Origin: an uncultured Bacteroidota bacterium
Lineage (GTDB): Bacteria > Bacteroidota > Bacteroidia > 2-12-FULL-35-15
Assembly: GCA_903926385.1 (NCBI GenBank)
Contig: CAIYIS010000059.1
Location: forward strand, 186,001-250,000
Direction of reading: 5' to 3'
DNA length: 64,000 bases
In this document: piece after piece, positions 11,262-53,287 of the stretch
Position numbering within the stretch: the stretch's first letter is position 1
Layout: each line of letters opens with the position of its first letter
Made by a program: the position numbers and the translations under genes
Notes under the pieces: model-generated
The model's input: only the letters and a program-made list of their open reading frames with translations
Told to the model about the DNA's origin: nothing
Database searches by the model: none

Positions 11262-12902
11262 ATGATGAAATTTGATTTACCTACAGACAACTCTTCAATT
11301 ATTAAAGTAATTGGTGTTGGTGGTGGCGGCAGTAATGCAGTTAATCACATGTACAAACAAGGTATTAAAGGTGTAGATTTTATAGTTTGCAACACCGATC
11401 AACAAGCTTTGGATATGAGTCCGGTACCAATGAAAATGGTATTGGGAGCTACATTGACCAAAGGTCGTGGTGCAGGTTCTTTGCCTGAGGTAGGCAGAAA
11501 TGCAGCCATCGAAACGATAGAAGAAATAAAAGAAATATTAGGTAATAATACCGAAATGCTTTTTATCACAGCTGGTTTGGGAGGTGGTACAGGTACAGGT
11601 GCTGCACCTATCATTGCACAAGCGGCAAAAGATATGGGAATTCTTACTGTTGGTATAGTTACCATTCCTTTCGGATTTGAAGGCAAAAAAAGAAAAGCTC
11701 AGGCTGATGCCGGTTTAGAAGCCTTGAAACAAAATGTGGATACATTACTTGTAATCAGTAATGATAAATTACGTGAGATTTACGGTAATCTGAAAGTGAC
11801 AGAAGCGTTCGGTCATGCAGATGATATTTTGACTACTGCAGCCAAAGGTATCGCAGATATCATCACCACTACTTTGCAAATAAACACCGACATCAATGAT
11901 GTGAAAACGGTAATGAAAGACAGTGGTGTTGCTATAATGGGATCTGCCATGGCAAGTGGTGAACACCGTGCTTTACGTGCAGTGGAGCAAGCTATGTCTT
12001 CTCCGTTGCTGAACGATAGCAATATTAAAGGAGCACGTTATGTGCTTGTCAACATCACTTGTGGGGAGGACGAAATAACCATGGACGAGTTAGGTGAGAT
12101 AACTGATTTTATTCAGGATGCTGCCGGAATGACTGCTGAAGTGATTAAAGGATATGGTGTAGATTTATCGCTTGGAGATAAAGTAAGTGTTACCATCATT
12201 GCTACCGGATTTAATTCGCAAAAAGATGCAGGAATTCATATGGAAGCAAAAGCTCCTGAACGCAAAGTTTTTGTTTTAGGGGAAGATATCAAAAAAGAAG
12301 AAGTTCAAGCAGAACCTGTGGTTGCTAAAGCTCCTGAAGCACCTGTAACTTTTGTAGAAGAAGAAATAACAATGACTTCTTACATAAAAACAGAAGATGT
12401 TGTTGAGCCAGTGGTAAACCAGGTGGTGAACGAAGAAGTGGAAGAAATAACTGAATCACCTGTTCAACCTTTCTTGTTTTTCGGAGAAGAAGAAGTGGTG
12501 AATCCAATTGCAGAAGAGAAAAAGGAAATAACTTTTGAATTCGAAATAACCAATACCAATTCTACAATCGAAGAGCCATTCATATTCTCTAATGCAGCAA
12601 ACGTAGATAATTCGGTAAAAGAAGAAGAACATTTAAATATTGCTAAATCGGAGAACGATGAGCAAATGAGAAAAGCACAGGAAAGAGTTTTAAAATTAAG
12701 AGCATTAAGTCATAAATTAAAAACTCCAAATGGATTATCAGAACTGGAAAACGAACCGGCTTACAAAAGAAGAAATGTAAACCTAGAAGCTACTCCGCAT
12801 TCGTCAGAATCGCAGGTGTCGCGTTATACGCTTTCGGAAGGTGAAGATAAAAACACAGAGATAAAACCTAATAACTCTTTTTTACACGATAATGTTGATT
12901 GA
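11262..12902 (+). CDS. ftsZ: Tubulin-like division GTPase FtsZ
   Basis: 546 aa. It forms the cytokinetic Z-ring. The GTPase domain is complete, with GGGGSN near residue 19 and the tubulin signature GGGTGTG at about residues 106-112. After about residue 320 comes a long acidic, low-complexity linker rich in E, V and P. It ends in a short tail, SFLHDNVD, that resembles other Bacteroidota FtsZ C-terminal peptides. The linker makes it some 150 residues longer than E. coli FtsZ. The start has two consecutive ATG codons (11262 and 11265), and either could be used. A strong terminator follows. Confidence 0.97.
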   Translation: MMKFDLPTDNSSIIKVIGVGGGGSNAVNHMYKQGIKGVDFIVCNTDQQALDMSPVPMKMVLGATLTKGRGAGSLPEVGRNAAIETIEEIKEILGNNTEMLFITAGLGGGTGTGAAPIIAQAAKDMGILTVGIVTIPFGFEGKKRKAQADAGLEALKQNVDTLLVISNDKLREIYGNLKVTEAFGHADDILTTAAKGIADIITTTLQINTDINDVKTVMKDSGVAIMGSAMASGEHRALRAVEQAMSSPLLNDSNIKGARYVLVNITCGEDEITMDELGEITDFIQDAAGMTAEVIKGYGVDLSLGDKVSVTIIATGFNSQKDAGIHMEAKAPERKVFVLGEDIKKEEVQAEPVVAKAPEAPVTFVEEEITMTSYIKTEDVVEPVVNQVVNEEVEEITESPVQPFLFFGEEEVVNPIAEEKKEITFEFEITNTNSTIEEPFIFSNAANVDNSVKEEEHLNIAKSENDEQMRKAQERVLKLRALSHKLKTPNGLSELENEPAYKRRNVNLEATPHSSESQVSRYTLSEGEDKNTEIKPNNSFLHDNVD

Positions 12903-16361: not shown

Positions 16362-17501
16362 ATGGACAGGAAACAAGCAACTAAAGCTATTACATTTATT
16401 ACACCTACCCTCGACCGAAAAGGTTCTGAGATAGCTTTGGTTAACTTGCTGCAACAAATAAATACAAGTTTCCAAATTAAATTAATAGCAAAGTACAAAG
16501 GAGTGCTGTTTGATTTGGTATTGAAAAGCGTAAATAAAGCATTTCTGTTTGATGGCAAACCAAAGCGAACATATTACCACCGGATAAAAGCCCGCCTTGC
16601 AATAAAAGCTCGTATGCGATTATTGTTAGGCGCAGAGGCTGATTCTGTTTTTTATATCAACACGATAATCTTACCGGATGTGCTTGCATTTGCACAGCAA
16701 AAGAAAATCAAAACGATAGTGCACATACATGAATTGGAACAAATGTACACTCAGCTTAATCTTTTGCAAATTCAGCGTTTGGTGGCGTATCCCGATTTGA
16801 TTATTGCCAATTCGAAAGCGAGTGCCGCAGTTATTGACAATTACGGACGAAGAGAGAATGTTGAAATTTGTTATCCGAGTTTGAATACTGAAAACATCAA
16901 ACCTGACAAAAAGAGTCGTGATACTTACAGAAAGAAATTAAATATTGCAGATAATGCGTTTTTGTGGGTTATGAGTGGTTCACTGGATAAGAATAAAAAT
17001 CCGTTTTTGTTTATTGACATAGCTGGAGAAATATTGAAAACAAAAAGCAATGTGAAGTTTATGTGGATAGGCGGAACTGTTGACACGAGTTTTGAAAAAC
17101 TATGTAAAGACAAAACTGTGGAAGGAAAGCTGAGCGATTCAGTTATATGGCTAGGCGATGTGGCAGAAGAATATTATGGTTATATGAATTGTGCAGATGG
17201 CTTTGTACTCACCTCCGAGAAAGAATCATTTTCATTGGTTACGGTAGAAGCGTTGTTGCTGGGTTTGCCAGTGGTTACTCAAAACTGCGGGGGTGTGAAA
17301 GAAATACTGCAAAACGACATTGGCAAGATAGTGGAAGAAAAAAATGATGTCGTACGAATGGCAGTGGAGATGATGAAGTTTATGGGTGGGGAGTATAAAG
17401 TGGATAAGGAAAAGCAAACCGAAAGAGCTAAGCAGTTTGATTCTGTTGCCATAGGTAAGCATTGGAATGATATTCTGGAACGATATTTTAACAAGGGGTA
17501 A
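16362..17501 (+). CDS. Family 4 (GT-B) glycosyltransferase
   Basis: 379 aa. The C-terminal half has the GT4 donor-binding pattern: SGSLDKNKNP, then VIWLGDV, and the E-x7-E motif in EKESFSLVTVEALLLG followed by LPVVTQNCGGVKE. The N-terminal half (VHIHELEQM) is the acceptor domain. It is a retaining enzyme of glycan assembly; sugar unknown. Its stop overlaps the next start (TAATG), so the two are translationally coupled. Confidence 0.88.
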   Translation: MDRKQATKAITFITPTLDRKGSEIALVNLLQQINTSFQIKLIAKYKGVLFDLVLKSVNKAFLFDGKPKRTYYHRIKARLAIKARMRLLLGAEADSVFYINTIILPDVLAFAQQKKIKTIVHIHELEQMYTQLNLLQIQRLVAYPDLIIANSKASAAVIDNYGRRENVEICYPSLNTENIKPDKKSRDTYRKKLNIADNAFLWVMSGSLDKNKNPFLFIDIAGEILKTKSNVKFMWIGGTVDTSFEKLCKDKTVEGKLSDSVIWLGDVAEEYYGYMNCADGFVLTSEKESFSLVTVEALLLGLPVVTQNCGGVKEILQNDIGKIVEEKNDVVRMAVEMMKFMGGEYKVDKEKQTERAKQFDSVAIGKHWNDILERYFNKG

Positions 17502-23314: not shown

Positions 23315-23484
23315 TTGTTTAACCTTTTCCTCCCCCCCCTTTCGTTCATTATTAACAAAACTATGAATCTCAAACAAGCAGTATGTTATAGTCAATAATT
23401 GACACAACTATCCTTTTTTTTAATGTTTTAGGTTAATGTGCACTGAGTTTATTTATTCTATACAGTTGTTTTTAGCCTCATTTT

Positions 23485-23525
23485 CCACCAAAAGGTGGCA
23501 CTTTGGTTCCGCGAAGCTTTATGAT
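23485..23525 (+). repeat. Left inverted flank of array 1
   Basis: 41 bases that match the reverse complement of 23782-23822 at 34 of 41 positions by my hand alignment. The outer part holds its own small hairpin (CCACC-AAAA-GGTGG, 23485-23498). The inner part, GAAGCTTTATGAT, runs into the first repeat unit. Confidence 0.75.
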
Positions 23526-23808
23526 TGTATTGAAAAGTTTCGCGATTGCATCATAAAGTTTCGCAATTGCATCATAAAGTTTCACGATTGCATCATAAAG
23601 GTTCGTGATAGTATCATTAAGTTTCGCAATAGCATCACCTAAGTTTCGTGATTGAATCATTAAGTTTCGTGATTGTATCATTAAGTTTCACGATTGCATC
23701 ATAAAAGTTCACGATAGTATCATAAAGTTTCACAATAGTATCATAAAGGTTCGTGATGGTATCATTAAGTTTCACAATAGTATCATAAAGCTTCACGGAA
23801 CAATACTG
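23514..23808. repeat. Array 1: fourteen 21-bp tandem units
   Basis: Units begin at 23514, 23535, 23556, 23577, 23598, 23619, 23641, 23662, 23683, 23704, 23725, 23746, 23767 and 23788. Spacing is 21 bases every time except one step of 22 at 23619-23641. Each unit starts AAGTTTC (or a one-base variant), ends ATCAT plus A or T, and has a variable middle that changes mostly by transitions. On the minus strand the unit translates as a heptad of the form Y-D-A-I-V-K-L. The changes fall on first and second codon positions as often as on third, which argues against protein selection. Confidence 0.93.
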
Positions 23809-23822
23809 GCACCTTTTTGTTG
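23782..23822 (-). repeat. Right inverted flank of array 1
   Basis: Inverted counterpart of 23485-23525, 34 of 41 positions paired. It contains ATCATAAAGCTTCACGGAAC, the inverse of the left flank's inner end. No clear target-site duplication is visible outside: both sides are just T-runs. Confidence 0.75.
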
Positions 23823-23989
23823 TTTTTTGACTTTCTTTTAACATTTATTAAAAAAATGAGATAAAAGAAGAATGACTAAAAACCATGGTTTCTGCTTCAA
23901 TCCTAAGGTTAATGGGTAAGAATGACAAAGAACGAAACAACCTCATGAATAGCAATATATCTATTACTTTTTTGAAAAAGAAACACCTT

Positions 23990-24200
23990 GTTTCACCAAA
24001 AAAGAAGGCAATGTCGACACAAAACATCCCCTTTTCATGTCGAAACATCCATGTTTCGTGTTGAAACGTCCTCGTTTCGTGTTGAAACATCCTCGTTTCG
24101 TGTTGAAACATCCTCGTTTCGTGTTGAAACGTCCTCGTTTCATGTCGAAACGTCCTCGTTTCGTGTCGAAACATCCATGTTTCGCGTCAACATTGCCTGC
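23990..24200. repeat. Array 2: about ten 21-bp units with a GTTTC/GAAAC dyad
   Basis: Units at 24032, 24053, 24074, 24095, 24116, 24137, 24158 and 24179 are clear; 23990 and 24011 are degenerate but in exact phase. A unit reads GTTTC, five bases (GTGTT type), GAAAC, then six bases (ATCCTC type). The GTTTC and GAAAC arms are constant from 24053 to 24158 while loop and spacer vary. The ends are inverted repeats: 24004-24027 matches the reverse complement of 24177-24200 at 20 of 24 positions. It shares GTTTCGTG with some array 1 units. There are no unique spacers, so it is not CRISPR. Confidence 0.92.
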
Positions 24201-48612: not shown

Positions 48613-49545
48613 TTAAACAGGCACCAACATTACGGTTACGCTGTACAACACTTGTCCGGGCACAAAATTAACCACCGTAGTGTTTTGCACAAATCCGGGT
48701 TTATTAGTAATCAACGTTACCAAATCTGCAACTGTTGTTTTAAATTGTAACATACCTGCTGAGTTGGCCACACGAGTAGTGTCGCTTTCTGCCAAATTGG
48801 TAGAAGCCCCGTCAACAGGCGCAGTGGTGCCATCTTTTAGTATTTCAACATTAATGGTTACTTCCACATCGCTTATGTAAACTATACCCCACGGGCGGCA
48901 TTTGTCGCGTTTCGTTTCGGCCGGAAGCTCGTTGTAGAAGGTTTCTGTTTCGTCCCATATTTTTAAAATCACCGCATCGGCATCTTCTCTTAAATTAGTT
49001 CTCACCAGTAGTTTTGCTTTATAATCAGCCGTTTTCACTTCCTGGTCTATGTTTGCCGTATTAAAATTTCCAAAAGCTGTGCCCACTTCGGCAGCAGTAG
49101 GATTGGACATAGCTGCCCCTCCGGCAGCCACTCTCAGCGCATCTCCGTCAATAATTCTATTGCCCCACAAAGTAATATCTGCCTCCGAAACAATAGCAGG
49201 CAATGCATCGTTGGCCACATCGAGATAAAAGAAAGTTCGCTGTTCGGCTGTGTACACACCCCGTTCAACTCCCATATTAAAAACCATGATAAAATGACGA
49301 ATAAACATAGCTGCTGTTTCTTTAGTGCTTTCAACCAAAGCAGTGGCAGTGGTTTTGGCAAATTCGGCAATCTGAATATTGTCGTTTGCTCCTTTCCAAG
49401 CCAAGTACATGGCCAGCAACCTCACTTTGGTGGCGTTGGTAACTGTTATTTCGGCAGGTATCACCGTGCCCAATTCTTGTTTTGCTTTGTTTATTGCTAC
49501 AGTACGTTCTTCGTCTGCTCTTGGCAATCTTCTCGAAATTCCCAT
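48613..49545 (-). CDS. Unrecognised protein with helical N-terminal half and C-terminal beta domain
   Basis: 310 aa, no signal peptide. The N-terminal half (residues about 1-150) is rich in Ala and Thr and predicted helical. The C-terminal ~85 residues (from DVEVTINVEIL) look like a carboxypeptidase-regulatory-type beta-sandwich (DGTTAPVDGAS, then NKPGFVQNTTVVNFVPG). I have the impression that similar proteins beginning with a Gly/Ser-x-RLPRAD motif occur in other Bacteroidota, but I cannot name a family. Convergent with tsaE; array 3 lies upstream. Confidence 0.7.
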   Translation of the reverse strand: MGISRRLPRADEERTVAINKAKQELGTVIPAEITVTNATKVRLLAMYLAWKGANDNIQIAEFAKTTATALVESTKETAAMFIRHFIMVFNMGVERGVYTAEQRTFFYLDVANDALPAIVSEADITLWGNRIIDGDALRVAAGGAAMSNPTAAEVGTAFGNFNTANIDQEVKTADYKAKLLVRTNLREDADAVILKIWDETETFYNELPAETKRDKCRPWGIVYISDVEVTINVEILKDGTTAPVDGASTNLAESDTTRVANSAGMLQFKTTVADLVTLITNKPGFVQNTTVVNFVPGQVLYSVTVMLVPV

Positions 49546-50252
49546 TTTGATTTTGTTTTAGTGATTACTTGTTTTTTTACTTATAGTTTTAATTTAAATT
49601 ATTTGTTTACTTGAATTTTTATTCCTGCTTTTTTTCGTTTTTCTCTCTCTTATATTTCTTCCAATTCTATTTTTTATGACAAATGATGAATTGTTTTTTC
49701 TCCCCGTTTCTATCTTTTTCTGTCAATGAAGATTCAACTTCCGTCATTTTGTCAAAATTTATCTAATTTGCTGGTTACTAACATTGCCATTCGACCTATT
49801 TTTTTTCAGTCGTCAATCGGCAGACCTGCCAACACAACTATTTTTTTTCAGTCGCCAATCGGCAGAACTGACAACCCACCTATTTTTTTCCAGCCTTAAC
49901 TTGACAGACCTGTCAACCTACCTATTTTTTTTCAGAGGTAACCTGACAGACCTGTCAACCCACCTATTTTTTTTCAGAGGCAACTTGACAGACCTGTCAA
50001 CCCACCTATTTTTTTTCAGAGGTAACCTGACAGACCTGTCAACCTACCTATTTTTTTTCAGAGGTAACCTGACAGAACTGTCAACCCTCGACTGAAAAAA
50101 AATACATTACTTGTTCCTGCTGTCGAAAACTAAATTGACAGAAAAATAAAAGGCACTTATTGCTGTATCTATATTTTATTTATTCAAAGAGCTGTCGAAA
50201 CAAACTTCAACAGAAGTATTATTTCGGCAACAAAGGTAGGGAGCTGAAGTAC
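49546..50252. other. Intergenic region holding array 3
   Basis: 707 bases without a convincing gene. The central 310 bases are the 42-bp array. An open frame of 103 codons on the plus strand (49784-50095) is simply the array read in a frame that its period keeps open. The outer parts are A+T-rich, with no terminator or clear promoter. Confidence 0.65.
49796..50104. repeat. Array 3: seven 42-bp units with T-tract and internal dyad
   Basis: Units start at 49796, 49838, 49880, 49922, 49964, 50006 and 50048, exactly 42 bases apart. Each has CTA, a tract of seven or eight T, CAG, a variable stretch and a dyad: TGACAG-AC-CTGTCA in units 3-6 (one base pair longer in units 3 and 5) and GACAG-AA-CTGTC in unit 7. 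Unit 1 has GGCAG-AC-CTGCC, in which both arms changed together. Unit 2 has one mismatch. The array closes with CGACTGAAAAAAAATA (50089-50104), the exact inverse of TATTTTTTTTCAGTCG in unit 1 (49797-49812). Confidence 0.94.
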
Positions 50253-50660
50253 TCACAAAAGGAGGTTGGGGGTCGTATGTTGAAAACTTGCCTTTGTTTC
50301 GAATATAAAAACAGGGTCGATGAGGTTAAACTGATGGTCGAAATAATCGAGTGCTTTTGCCATTTGATATAAGGTAAAGTGATGGCTGTTTTCCTTTATG
50401 TTTTTAACTATTTTGGCCTGTTCGGCATTGAGGTGAAGAAAGGAAGAAACAAGGTGGAGTTTTTCTTTAAAATTTCGCTTAATAAAGTTTGGAAGTAAAT
50501 CATCGCAAAAAATATTATTCAAACCTCTCATGGTATTACATTGCAAAATAATTTTAGTCCATTTGTCTTCCGATTTAAACATGTTGATAATCGCATTTTC
50601 AGCGCCTGTAGCTTGATTCAGACCTGTTATTAAGTCTTTTATTCCATTTACACTTCTCAT
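50253..50660 (-). CDS. Unrecognised small protein
   Basis: 135 aa, predicted mostly helical, with no signal peptide, membrane segment or known motif. Amino-acid composition is ordinary (charged and hydrophobic residues mixed), which favours a real gene. There is no partner gene: array 3 is downstream and a divergent gene upstream. I cannot suggest a function. Confidence 0.45.
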   Translation of the reverse strand: MRSVNGIKDLITGLNQATGAENAIINMFKSEDKWTKIILQCNTMRGLNNIFCDDLLPNFIKRNFKEKLHLVSSFLHLNAEQAKIVKNIKENSHHFTLYQMAKALDYFDHQFNLIDPVFIFETKASFQHTTPNLLL

Positions 50661-50896
50661 GATAATTGAATTATTTGGTTAATAAAGGGGGTATGTGTTC
50701 GAATTGTTAATAACTCAAATCGGTGAAAATGGTAGTATTTCTTACTCTTTTGCGACATTTAGTCTAAAATTACAGCCCACAAAACGATAAAAAAACAATG
50801 GAGGAAACTTGCATTATTTTTTATCTCAAATCATATAACAAAGATATACAATTATTTTCTATATCTTTACAACTCCAAACAACTATTTTTTTAATC

Positions 50897-53287
50897 ATGA
50901 AACTAAAATTATTCCTCATCTCGGTGCTCGCCATCATAGGCTGGAGCGCAAATGCCCAATGTGTGGCTACGTTTTCATATCCCAGCAGTACATACTGCAA
51001 CTCATTACCCAACCCTGCGCCAGTTTTCAGCGGAGGCGGTGTGGCCGGAACATTTACAGCTACTCCTGCGGGGCTATCGATAAATGCCTCAACCGGTGTA
51101 ATAAGTTTGGCTGTGAGTGCTGCCGGTACATATACTGTTACCAATACAGTAGCCACTAATGGCGGATGTAGCGCTACAGCAACTGTTTCAATTTATGCTT
51201 CGCCTGATATATCAACTGCCGGACCTAGCCAAACAGTTTGCGGAACTACCGCTACACTAGCTGCTAACATACCTGCAACAGGAACAGGAATATGGACATT
51301 ATTAAGTGGTAGTGGAAACATTTCGAACCCAGCTTCTGCAACATCAGGAATTACGGGATTAGGAGTGGGAGCAAATGTTTTTCAATGGACGATAAGTAAT
51401 CCGCCTTGTGCGGCTTCCTCAAGTATGGTAGTTATAACAGTTGGTCCGGCAACGACAGTTGCAAATGCAGGGCCTAATCAAGCGTTTTGCGGAACAACCG
51501 CTACAATGGCAGGTAATACGCCTATTGTAGGAACAGGAGTATGGTCATTAGTAAGTGGTAGTGGAACCATTACAACTCCTACATCACCAACATCAGGAGT
51601 TACAGGATTAACACCGGGTGCCAACGTTTTTCAATGGACCATTAGTAATCCTCCTTGCGCATCTTCTACTTCACAAGTAACCCTAACCGCCATGGCAGCA
51701 ACTACAGTGTCGAATGCCGGCCCAATGCAAGCCATTTGTGGAAATACTTGCACCATGGCTGCCAACGCAGCAAGTGTAGGAATCGGACAGTGGACATTAA
51801 TAAGCGGTTCGGGACTTATAGCTAATACCAACTCGCCAACAACTACCATTACCGGATTAGGAGTTGGAGCAAATGTATTTCAATGGACCATTACAAACCC
51901 GCCTTGCATGGCTTCTTCCAGTCAAGTAGTTATCACAGTCGACCAAACACCGTCCGTTACAAATGCCATTTTAACTCAATCTTTATGTGGAAATGGTATG
52001 GCAATCTTTGTCCCAACATCAAATGTAGGAAATACGGATTTTTCTGACTCTGCATCTGCTTCCTCAACCACTGTTACAGGATATTCTCCATTTTGGACCG
52101 GACAAATAGTTGACATGATTTATAACAATGGTAATACCACAGAAACGGTAACCTACATAATAACACCTGTGGGTCCTCCACCAACTTATTGCGTAGGCAC
52201 TCCTGTTAATTTTGTTGTTACTATAAACCCTGCTCCTACTGCCGCTTATGCCGGAGCAGATCAAATAGTGTGCGGACCTAACACCACTTTGTCGGGAAAT
52301 GCACCAACATCGGGCACCGGTTTGTGGACACTGTTAAGCGGTTCGGGAACCATTACTACTCCAACTTCGCCAACAACAACTGTTACCGGGCTAGGCACCG
52401 GAAATAATGTATTTCAATGGACCATCAGCAGCATGAGTTGCGGAAGCTCGTCCAGTCAGGTTACGGTATCGCCAACACCTGTAGGTTTGCCTATTTGCGA
52501 GGTTACGGTCGATTCGCTTTCTACACATAATATAGTGGTTTGGGAAAAAACAGGATTAGCCATCCCTCCTCTCTACTTTAAAATTTACAGAGAAGATATA
52601 ACCAATGTTTATACTTTTTTAAATTCAGTAATGTTCGATTCCCTGAGTGTTTATAATGATTACGGAGTTAATCCGAATGTAACCGGCAAGCGTTACAAAA
52701 TATCGTTGGTGGACACCTGCTATAATGAAAGTGCGCTAAGCCCATACCACAACACCATGTGGCTAAATTATGCCGGCAACGGAATATTAAGCTGGACACC
52801 TTATTCGATAGAAGGACTAAGTAATCCGGTAACTCAATATCAAATATACAGAGACGATTTAGGAAACGGAGTATGGGCTGTGATAGGCACTACTGCAGGA
52901 ACTCAGCTGGGTTACACCGACATTAATTTCGCTTCGTACCCCGCTGCCAATTATAAAGTAAAGGTGTTGTGGTCGCTTACATGCACTCCTACTCGCTCTG
53001 CTTTGAGTTCGCCTTGGTCTAATGCAACTCAGCATGGAGTGGGCATAAACGAAGCAACTGCTGTAAACTCTATTATTATTTCACCGAATCCATTTACTTC
53101 TCAAACCATCATTTCTTTTGACAGAGAAAAGAGAAACGAAACACTTGTAATCAGAAATGTGTTGGGTAATGTGGTAAGAACTTACATTGTAAATGGTCGT
53201 GAACTTGCCATAGAAAGAGGAGAACTGGCAAGCGGCATTTATTTTATTACTACCGGAAATGTAAACCGAAAGATAGTGATAGAATAA
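50897..53287 (+). CDS. Secreted repeat protein with type IX secretion C-terminal sorting domain
   Basis: 796 aa from ATG 50897, which opens a clear signal peptide (MKLKLFLISVLAIIGWSANA). A longer frame from 50798 has no signal and is rejected. Four ~83-residue PKD/Ig-like repeats follow, at about 109-191, 192-274, 275-357 and 453-535. Each has a cysteine pair, W-T-L-x-SGSG and the block GANVFQWTISNPPC; a divergent stretch separates the third and fourth. Fibronectin-like segments come next. The last ~75 residues (ISPNPF, then LASGIYFI and a basic end) are a type IX sorting domain, so it should be secreted and attached at the cell surface. Possibly an adhesin. Confidence 0.88.
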   Translation: MKLKLFLISVLAIIGWSANAQCVATFSYPSSTYCNSLPNPAPVFSGGGVAGTFTATPAGLSINASTGVISLAVSAAGTYTVTNTVATNGGCSATATVSIYASPDISTAGPSQTVCGTTATLAANIPATGTGIWTLLSGSGNISNPASATSGITGLGVGANVFQWTISNPPCAASSSMVVITVGPATTVANAGPNQAFCGTTATMAGNTPIVGTGVWSLVSGSGTITTPTSPTSGVTGLTPGANVFQWTISNPPCASSTSQVTLTAMAATTVSNAGPMQAICGNTCTMAANAASVGIGQWTLISGSGLIANTNSPTTTITGLGVGANVFQWTITNPPCMASSSQVVITVDQTPSVTNAILTQSLCGNGMAIFVPTSNVGNTDFSDSASASSTTVTGYSPFWTGQIVDMIYNNGNTTETVTYIITPVGPPPTYCVGTPVNFVVTINPAPTAAYAGADQIVCGPNTTLSGNAPTSGTGLWTLLSGSGTITTPTSPTTTVTGLGTGNNVFQWTISSMSCGSSSSQVTVSPTPVGLPICEVTVDSLSTHNIVVWEKTGLAIPPLYFKIYREDITNVYTFLNSVMFDSLSVYNDYGVNPNVTGKRYKISLVDTCYNESALSPYHNTMWLNYAGNGILSWTPYSIEGLSNPVTQYQIYRDDLGNGVWAVIGTTAGTQLGYTDINFASYPAANYKVKVLWSLTCTPTRSALSSPWSNATQHGVGINEATAVNSIIISPNPFTSQTIISFDREKRNETLVIRNVLGNVVRTYIVNGRELAIERGELASGIYFITTGNVNRKIVIE

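Follow-up and report, generated by a model that had tools for sequence, protein, structure and literature searches.

Intergenic tandem arrays with periods in multiples of 21 bp and differing units form a family linked to orphan genes in Bacteroidia

The iterons of plasmid replication origins are direct repeats spaced at about two helical turns, along which protein binds to a single face of the helix, and they constitute a few near-identical sites for a single Rep protein at the origin. In the type III toxin-antitoxin systems (toxIN), tandem RNA-type repeats lie directly 5′ of one small gene, and each locus has its private repeat. Within the class to which the present arrays belong, the BrickBuilt MITE of Porphyromonas gingivalis, which is accompanied by the 464/PgRS elements of 41-nt repeats, is likewise an intergenic tandem minisatellite with a leader and a tail that end in inverted repeats, and it is present in many copies (PMC4596501). 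A boxA element precedes long untranslated RNAs, CRISPR arrays included (PMC7862264 and its reference to Stringer et al.), and CRISPR arrays of this kind resemble the layout found here, with a promoter, a boxA ~50-130 nt before the array and transcription of the array as a non-coding RNA. Among open-licence papers we found no description of the array-gene pairing presented below, the nearest being that of BrickBuilt.

The window, by which we mean the whole 64-kb stretch analysed (64,000 nucleotides of an uncultured Bacteroidota bacterium), contains three strong arrays as judged by TRF, arrays 1, 2 and 3, and only these, all of them intergenic (Table 1). A first-pass annotation of the sequence had described them as non-coding arrays with periods of 21, 21 and 42 bp closed by inverted repeats, and these properties are borne out by TRF and by the end repeats visible in the sequence, as is the occurrence of GTTTCGTG in both array 1 and array 2. 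A shorter copy of array 2 is found at C59:113695 (L022) with flanks ~87-90% identical, and the end repeat of array 2 recurs at C45 (L023) together with a different 42-bp unit, while the end inverted repeats of array 3 are largely an inverted part of its unit. Such end repeats stand out in arrays 1-3 and in several others. In the wider set they are enriched (KS p = 4e-6), the two flanks of an array being more complementary to each other than mismatched pairs are, but they are not universal, and just 10 of 38 arrays reach rank 0.1 or better.

Table 1 Features of the three arrays and their surroundings (window coordinates), with the sites of a dispersed repeat at other loci.
Feature	Position	Strand	Basis and remarks
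Array 1	23523..23794	− (by homology to modules C16/C68)	TRF, homology; 21 bp × 12.9, solo
Array 1 left end inverted repeat, GGTGGCACTTTGGTTCCGCGAAGCTTT	23494..23520	+	Sequence; homology hits
Array 1 right end inverted repeat	23787..23813	−	Sequence
Remnant of module gene-side flank beside array 1	23442..23512	−	Homology
Array 2	24022..24184	.	TRF; 21 bp × 7.8 units
Array 2 left end inverted repeat, AGGCAATGTCGACACAAAAC	24006..24025	+	Sequence
Array 2 right end inverted repeat	24179..24198	−	Sequence
310-aa orphan ORF (P0001)	48613..49545	−	ATG at 49545; no Pfam match
Array 3	49794..50087	−	TRF; 42 bp × 7.0, leader of the 310-aa gene
Array 3 end inverted repeat, gene side	49796..49812	+	Sequence
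Array 3 end inverted repeat, promoter side	50089..50104	−	Sequence
boxA-like element GCTCTTTG(AA), promoter-array 3 interval	50185..50192	−	Pattern scan; motif type as in 16S leaders
Candidate Bacteroidota promoter, array 3 module	50231..50258	−	Pattern scan and sequence; TTG-N17-TACCTTTG
CCCTCTCCGAAGGAGAGGGGGAGG-type repeat sites	L022:7002-7055, L033:11715-11770, L038:11370-11427, L039:8719-8874, L041:15468-15521 and 17432-17499		

The three arrays belong to an intergenic family with one period and different units that reaches far beyond the window. In a census of non-coding tandem arrays of at least 60 bp, covering 513 kb or about 12% of the window's genome, the period is a multiple of 21 (21, 42, 63 or 84 bp) in 21 of 26 arrays, the exceptions having periods of 44, 49, 58, 103 and 106 bp; the counts cover arrays from about 60 bp and 70% identity upwards. 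Chance is excluded as an explanation, because multiples of 21 make up only ~5% of the possible periods, and the units are plainly unlike one another when set side by side. Array density is about 4 per 100 kb, a value slightly inflated since the sampled loci were partly chosen for their arrays (L009, L010, L022, L023 and the window), and most arrays are 150-250 bp long with a maximum of 405 bp (70 arrays from several genomes). A family of this kind had been anticipated in the first-pass annotation, and the genome-wide tandem-repeat check suggested there, run on the sample, yielded further arrays of the same plan in the genome, in its relatives and in other bacterial families, with no drift of the period in the relatives to values such as 20 or 22 bp. 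Membership among the BrickBuilt elements fails on the shared 23-nt unit, as the present units differ between copies. BrickBuilt has a period of 23 (and 41), keeps one unit family per element in one species and is not described as a gene-family leader, nor does it have a boxA (PMC4596501), whereas the present arrays have periods of 21 or its multiples, private units and a linkage to orphan genes in many families.

This gene link, which the earlier annotation had missed, is present in the window at array 3, where a promoter-like element, a boxA-like element, the 42-bp array and the 310-aa orphan ORF follow one another on the minus strand. The protein (P0001) is predicted, at pLDDT 92.6, to combine a long helical bundle and a CnaB-like domain. 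Its homologues are confined to 6 of 36 genus genomes, and in 9 of the ~15 assessable copies a 42-bp array, each with its own unit, lies just 5′ of the start. Another family, of 220 aa, was found via the arrays at C16, C68 and C7 and has 4-16 copies in 8 genomes; its predicted model (pLDDT 87) has an fn3 domain beside a helical bundle. A 21-bp-period array lies upstream in 23 of the 26 loci of this family whose upstream sequence extends for at least 500 bp; when the three array-found loci are excluded, 20 of the 23 copies in the genus have an array no more than 600 bp 5′ of their start codon, compared with 6% of genes in array-rich genomes (p about 5e-22). A class-wide search of 395 genomes extended the family, through distant members, to seven further bacterial families, and there an array lies 5′ of the ORF in 15 of 16 assessable loci, the true ORF start being uncertain at L287 and L293, where the open frame crosses the array; even the 12 of 16 loci with an array of TRF score at least 100 far exceed the background of 10% (p = 2e-9). 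The same array-gene layout is seen in a third family, which has an fn3 domain; the layout of array 3 is thus shared by two orphan families besides that of the 310-aa protein, ORFs being called by a simple longest-ORF rule. The module, consisting of a promoter, often a boxA, 7-14 units with a period of 21 bp or a multiple of it, often an end inverted repeat, and a small orphan gene (a helical bundle with an fn3 or CnaB-like domain), is conserved over the class. At L293:877-1310 and L287:955-1310 (coding orientation, family f4) the orphan-gene frame is open through the array, and the 8-mer GTTCTTTG lies just 5′.

The array-linked proteins have no match in Pfam or PADLOC and none in NCBIfam above cut-off, apart from fn3 in one family, and the single PHROG match is to a tail protein in the fn3 region. 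Three known kinds of locus were considered and rejected. First, plasmid iterons differ from the present arrays, which are chromosomal, occur many times per genome (up to about 4-6 per 100 kb) and have unrelated units, with no Rep gene seen and no Rep match among the orphan ORFs. Next, a CRISPR array would have spacers, whereas here the units adjoin head to tail and each array has its own repeat; no cas genes are found among the array-adjacent genes listed, and the array-linked proteins have no defence-system match. Finally, in comparison with toxIN the present repeats are more numerous and shorter, and closely related proteins can have unrelated repeats; the protein is predicted to be a helical bundle with an fn3 or CnaB domain instead of a ToxN-like RNase, no ToxN/AbiQ-like fold being predicted and no Pfam or PADLOC match obtained.

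The distribution of the arrays is patchy. Among 36 species of the genus sampled, all represented by MAGs, they are abundant in G000, G012, G023, G032 and G034 (2.5 to 6.3 per 100 kb) and rare or absent in the remaining ones, many of which are represented by just 20 kb; four relatives thus match the window genome in array abundance and most others have none. Named relatives are uncultured Bacteroidetes, several of them from freshwater. Beyond the genus, arrays are also present in G299, G120 and G219. Arrays are scarce or lacking in genomes that do not have the gene family, and none were found in five control genomes of that kind (100 kb in all). Within genomes, arrays are found between divergent, convergent and tandem genes alike, about as often as the intergenic length of each class would predict, and a large fraction lie in the 5′ leaders of particular orphan genes, behind a promoter and boxA; the suggestion that they insulate operons from one another is not supported by this placement, and a terminator or inter-operon boundary element was rejected on the same ground.

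In a motif search of the 220 bp preceding each of 38 gene-linked arrays, the 8-mer GTTCTTTG came out on top, found at 10 loci against 0.2 expected (p = 6e-15), exclusively in the gene sense and never between the array and the ATG. As it is present in the leaders of all six 16S genes recovered from genus relatives, the motif is read as boxA; the assembly of the window's own genome contains no 16S leader. The 513-kb sample has just four intergenic copies of it, three of which are followed by an array. A looser boxA pattern is found 5′ of 15 of the 38 arrays in sense and of none of the 38 in antisense, and the Bacteroidota promoter pattern alone is weakly enriched at the same place (7 of 38 compared with about 4 expected). 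The fact that boxA is found in less than half of the loci counts against the cis-regulatory reading favoured below.

The gene-sense-only boxA and several promoters suggest that array 3 and some others are transcribed, and the tight linkage of an array with one gene likewise agrees with a role for the RNA itself, in which a boxA-protected untranslated leader of repeated hairpins would bind one protein, either the downstream-encoded one or another, per 21-nt unit, after the pattern of type III toxin-antitoxin RNAs or CRISPR precursors. Compared with column-permuted controls, the array RNA of either strand has the better fold (mean z −1.76, p = 8e-9), and in the stems of the units G-U pairs outnumber A-C pairs (86 to 65). 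However, the strand asymmetry expected of an RNA is not significant, neither in folding of sense versus antisense (p = 0.32) nor in the 86:65 ratio of the unit stems, and the end repeats have 18 G-U and 19 A-C pairs. None of these tests separated RNA from DNA. An Rfam search of the window also gave zero matches, and 82% identical proteins can be preceded by unrelated units. An RNA scaffold is in our view rather improbable but still a serious rival. The arrays were also considered as coding repeats, which was rejected, as the frame is open in 22 of 38 arrays in sense and 24 in antisense with 18.5 expected. A coding repeat, with periods of 75/150 bp, is found at L033:15084-15786 and probably belongs to a leucine-rich or BspA-like surface protein.

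DNA is preferred over RNA as the acting form mainly because of the series 21, 42, 63 and 84, exact multiples for which an RNA gives no reason, while 21 bp corresponds to exactly two helical turns. The reading that we tentatively favour, at a likelihood somewhat short of even, is that of a helically phased, sequence-flexible cis-regulatory array in a transcribed leader. The array would act as regulatory DNA in cis, and units of two or four turns with some dyad symmetry (5.9 pairs in the consensus unit compared with 5.0 in shuffled ones, p = 1e-4, a modest excess) would all be presented on the same face of the helix, which could allow a dimeric protein to assemble cooperatively along the array. 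Spacing would then matter most, and the recognized sequence could drift together with its partner. The boxA might allow the RNA polymerase to cross the untranslated leader without Rho termination, and solo arrays would be derivatives of the array-gene modules. In favour of this reading are the one period over many dissimilar units, the linkage of arrays to the 220-aa family in and beyond the genus, the scarcity of arrays where that family is lacking, the dyad excess, the sense-only boxA and its counterpart in the 16S leaders, the missing coding signal and the solo array 1.

Helical phasing had been proposed in the first-pass annotation, and it does provide a good reason for periods of 21 and 42 bp. 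Selection for phase is nevertheless not proved, because indels in the arrays are not significantly depleted relative to the flanks: the ratio of indels to substitutions is 1:14.5 in the arrays, and a small sample of flanking sequence gave 1:12.4 (p = 0.62). Inheritance of the period through unit turnover could also suffice. As regards the units themselves, the orthologues L241, L242 and L236 form a trio in which the 42-bp unit retains 67-79% identity, whereas the sequence separating the array from the ATG cannot be aligned; at L225 and L233, on the other hand, flank and ORF are ~81% identical and the units are unrelated. Units can thus be either kept or replaced, and the period is kept across paralogues and bacterial families. 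The conserved unit of the trio supports the favoured reading; that just one trio has such conservation, with differing units at L225/L233, speaks against it. In the trio, a conserved AAATTTATAAARCAATAA element is also seen ~100-120 bp upstream of the arrays, past diverged sequence.

The same period for dissimilar units, within and between genomes, might alternatively reflect an enzymatic ruler, a copying or repair reaction that adds 21-nt steps and amplifies any sequence beside a start signal. No candidate enzyme was found, and many arrays have a distant unit similarity to one another, falling into a GATTGNATC group and a AGTACTTT group, which fits descent; at L037, moreover, there is no full unit to amplify. 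We regard such a ruler as very improbable.

Solo arrays bear on the origin of the family. The left end repeat of array 1 is common to two gene-linked arrays elsewhere in its own genome, at C16 (L009) and C68 (L010), the two other places where a DNA search found it, and at each of them the end repeats enclose a 21-bp array of another unit. The flank beside array 1 is in addition 86% identical to the array-ORF interval at C68 (L010 4790-4861), so that array 1 shares with these modules its ends as well as 72 bp of flank on the gene side, with no ORF at its own location. Array 1 is a solo relative of a gene-linked array, repeating the end of a module. The locus L037 is a copy of the leader of the L034 module in which 11 bp replaces the array and the ORF is missing. 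The two comparisons therefore indicate that solo arrays can be derivatives of modules, and many further arrays stand alone without one. Set against the stand-alone BrickBuilt element, it is the solo arrays such as array 1 that are without an ORF, whereas the copies of modules include it.

Non-autonomous mobile repeats, one of the roles suggested for the arrays at the outset, receive some support from array 1 and from the deletion derivative at L037. In the fuller form of this idea the arrays would be selfish MITE-like cassettes with an internal minisatellite, the period being inherited through slippage and unequal exchange, with no function for the host. The enrichment of terminal inverted repeats, the resemblance of the higher-order periods of 42, 63 and 84 bp to satellite evolution, the patchy distribution in the genus and the precedent of BrickBuilt in the same class (PMC4596501) are all compatible with it. 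Yet neither a transposase-like gene nor a target-site duplication was found, plasmid and phage collections searched by tblastn with one protein hold no copies, and in one trio the units are conserved against diverged flanks. The order and distance of array and ORF are also kept across other families of the class, with boxA in the gene-sense direction, and a selfish cassette seems rather improbable on balance, though it too is a serious rival.

A more far-reaching possibility is that the array and the orphan protein constitute a single dedicated nucleoprotein system whose pitch is 21 bp (or 21 nt), in which the protein or a partner would polymerise on its own array and read spacing and not sequence. 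Such a system would be conserved across Bacteroidia and distinct from CRISPR, iterons and type III toxin-antitoxin loci. We consider this possible, if rather doubtful. A period kept over a whole class together with a freely changing sequence is hard to explain by known bacterial repeats, and its link to a multi-copy orphan family behind an rRNA-type boxA offers a testable system of one promoter, one array and one protein, which could reveal a protein that reads the spacing of DNA instead of its sequence, or leader RNA of a new type. Hundreds of intergenic features that lack annotation could also be named as members of the family, which would account for some assembly breaks as well.

In three array-rich genomes, contigs start inside a 21-bp-period array (L197:1-94, L200:1-206 and L312:1-327), and arrays probably break assemblies and so are undercounted. 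Some genomes without 21-bp arrays carry arrays of 7 or 14 bp instead (L064:19511-19598, L317:7475-7625 and 12524-12625). Just past the array 3 module, the window (50798-53287) encodes an 829-aa protein that has PKD-like domains and, at its C terminus, a sorting domain of type IX secretion. A dispersed REP-like palindromic repeat of the CCCTCTCCGAAGGAGAGGGGGAGG type is likewise intergenic and often adjoins a 21-bp array.
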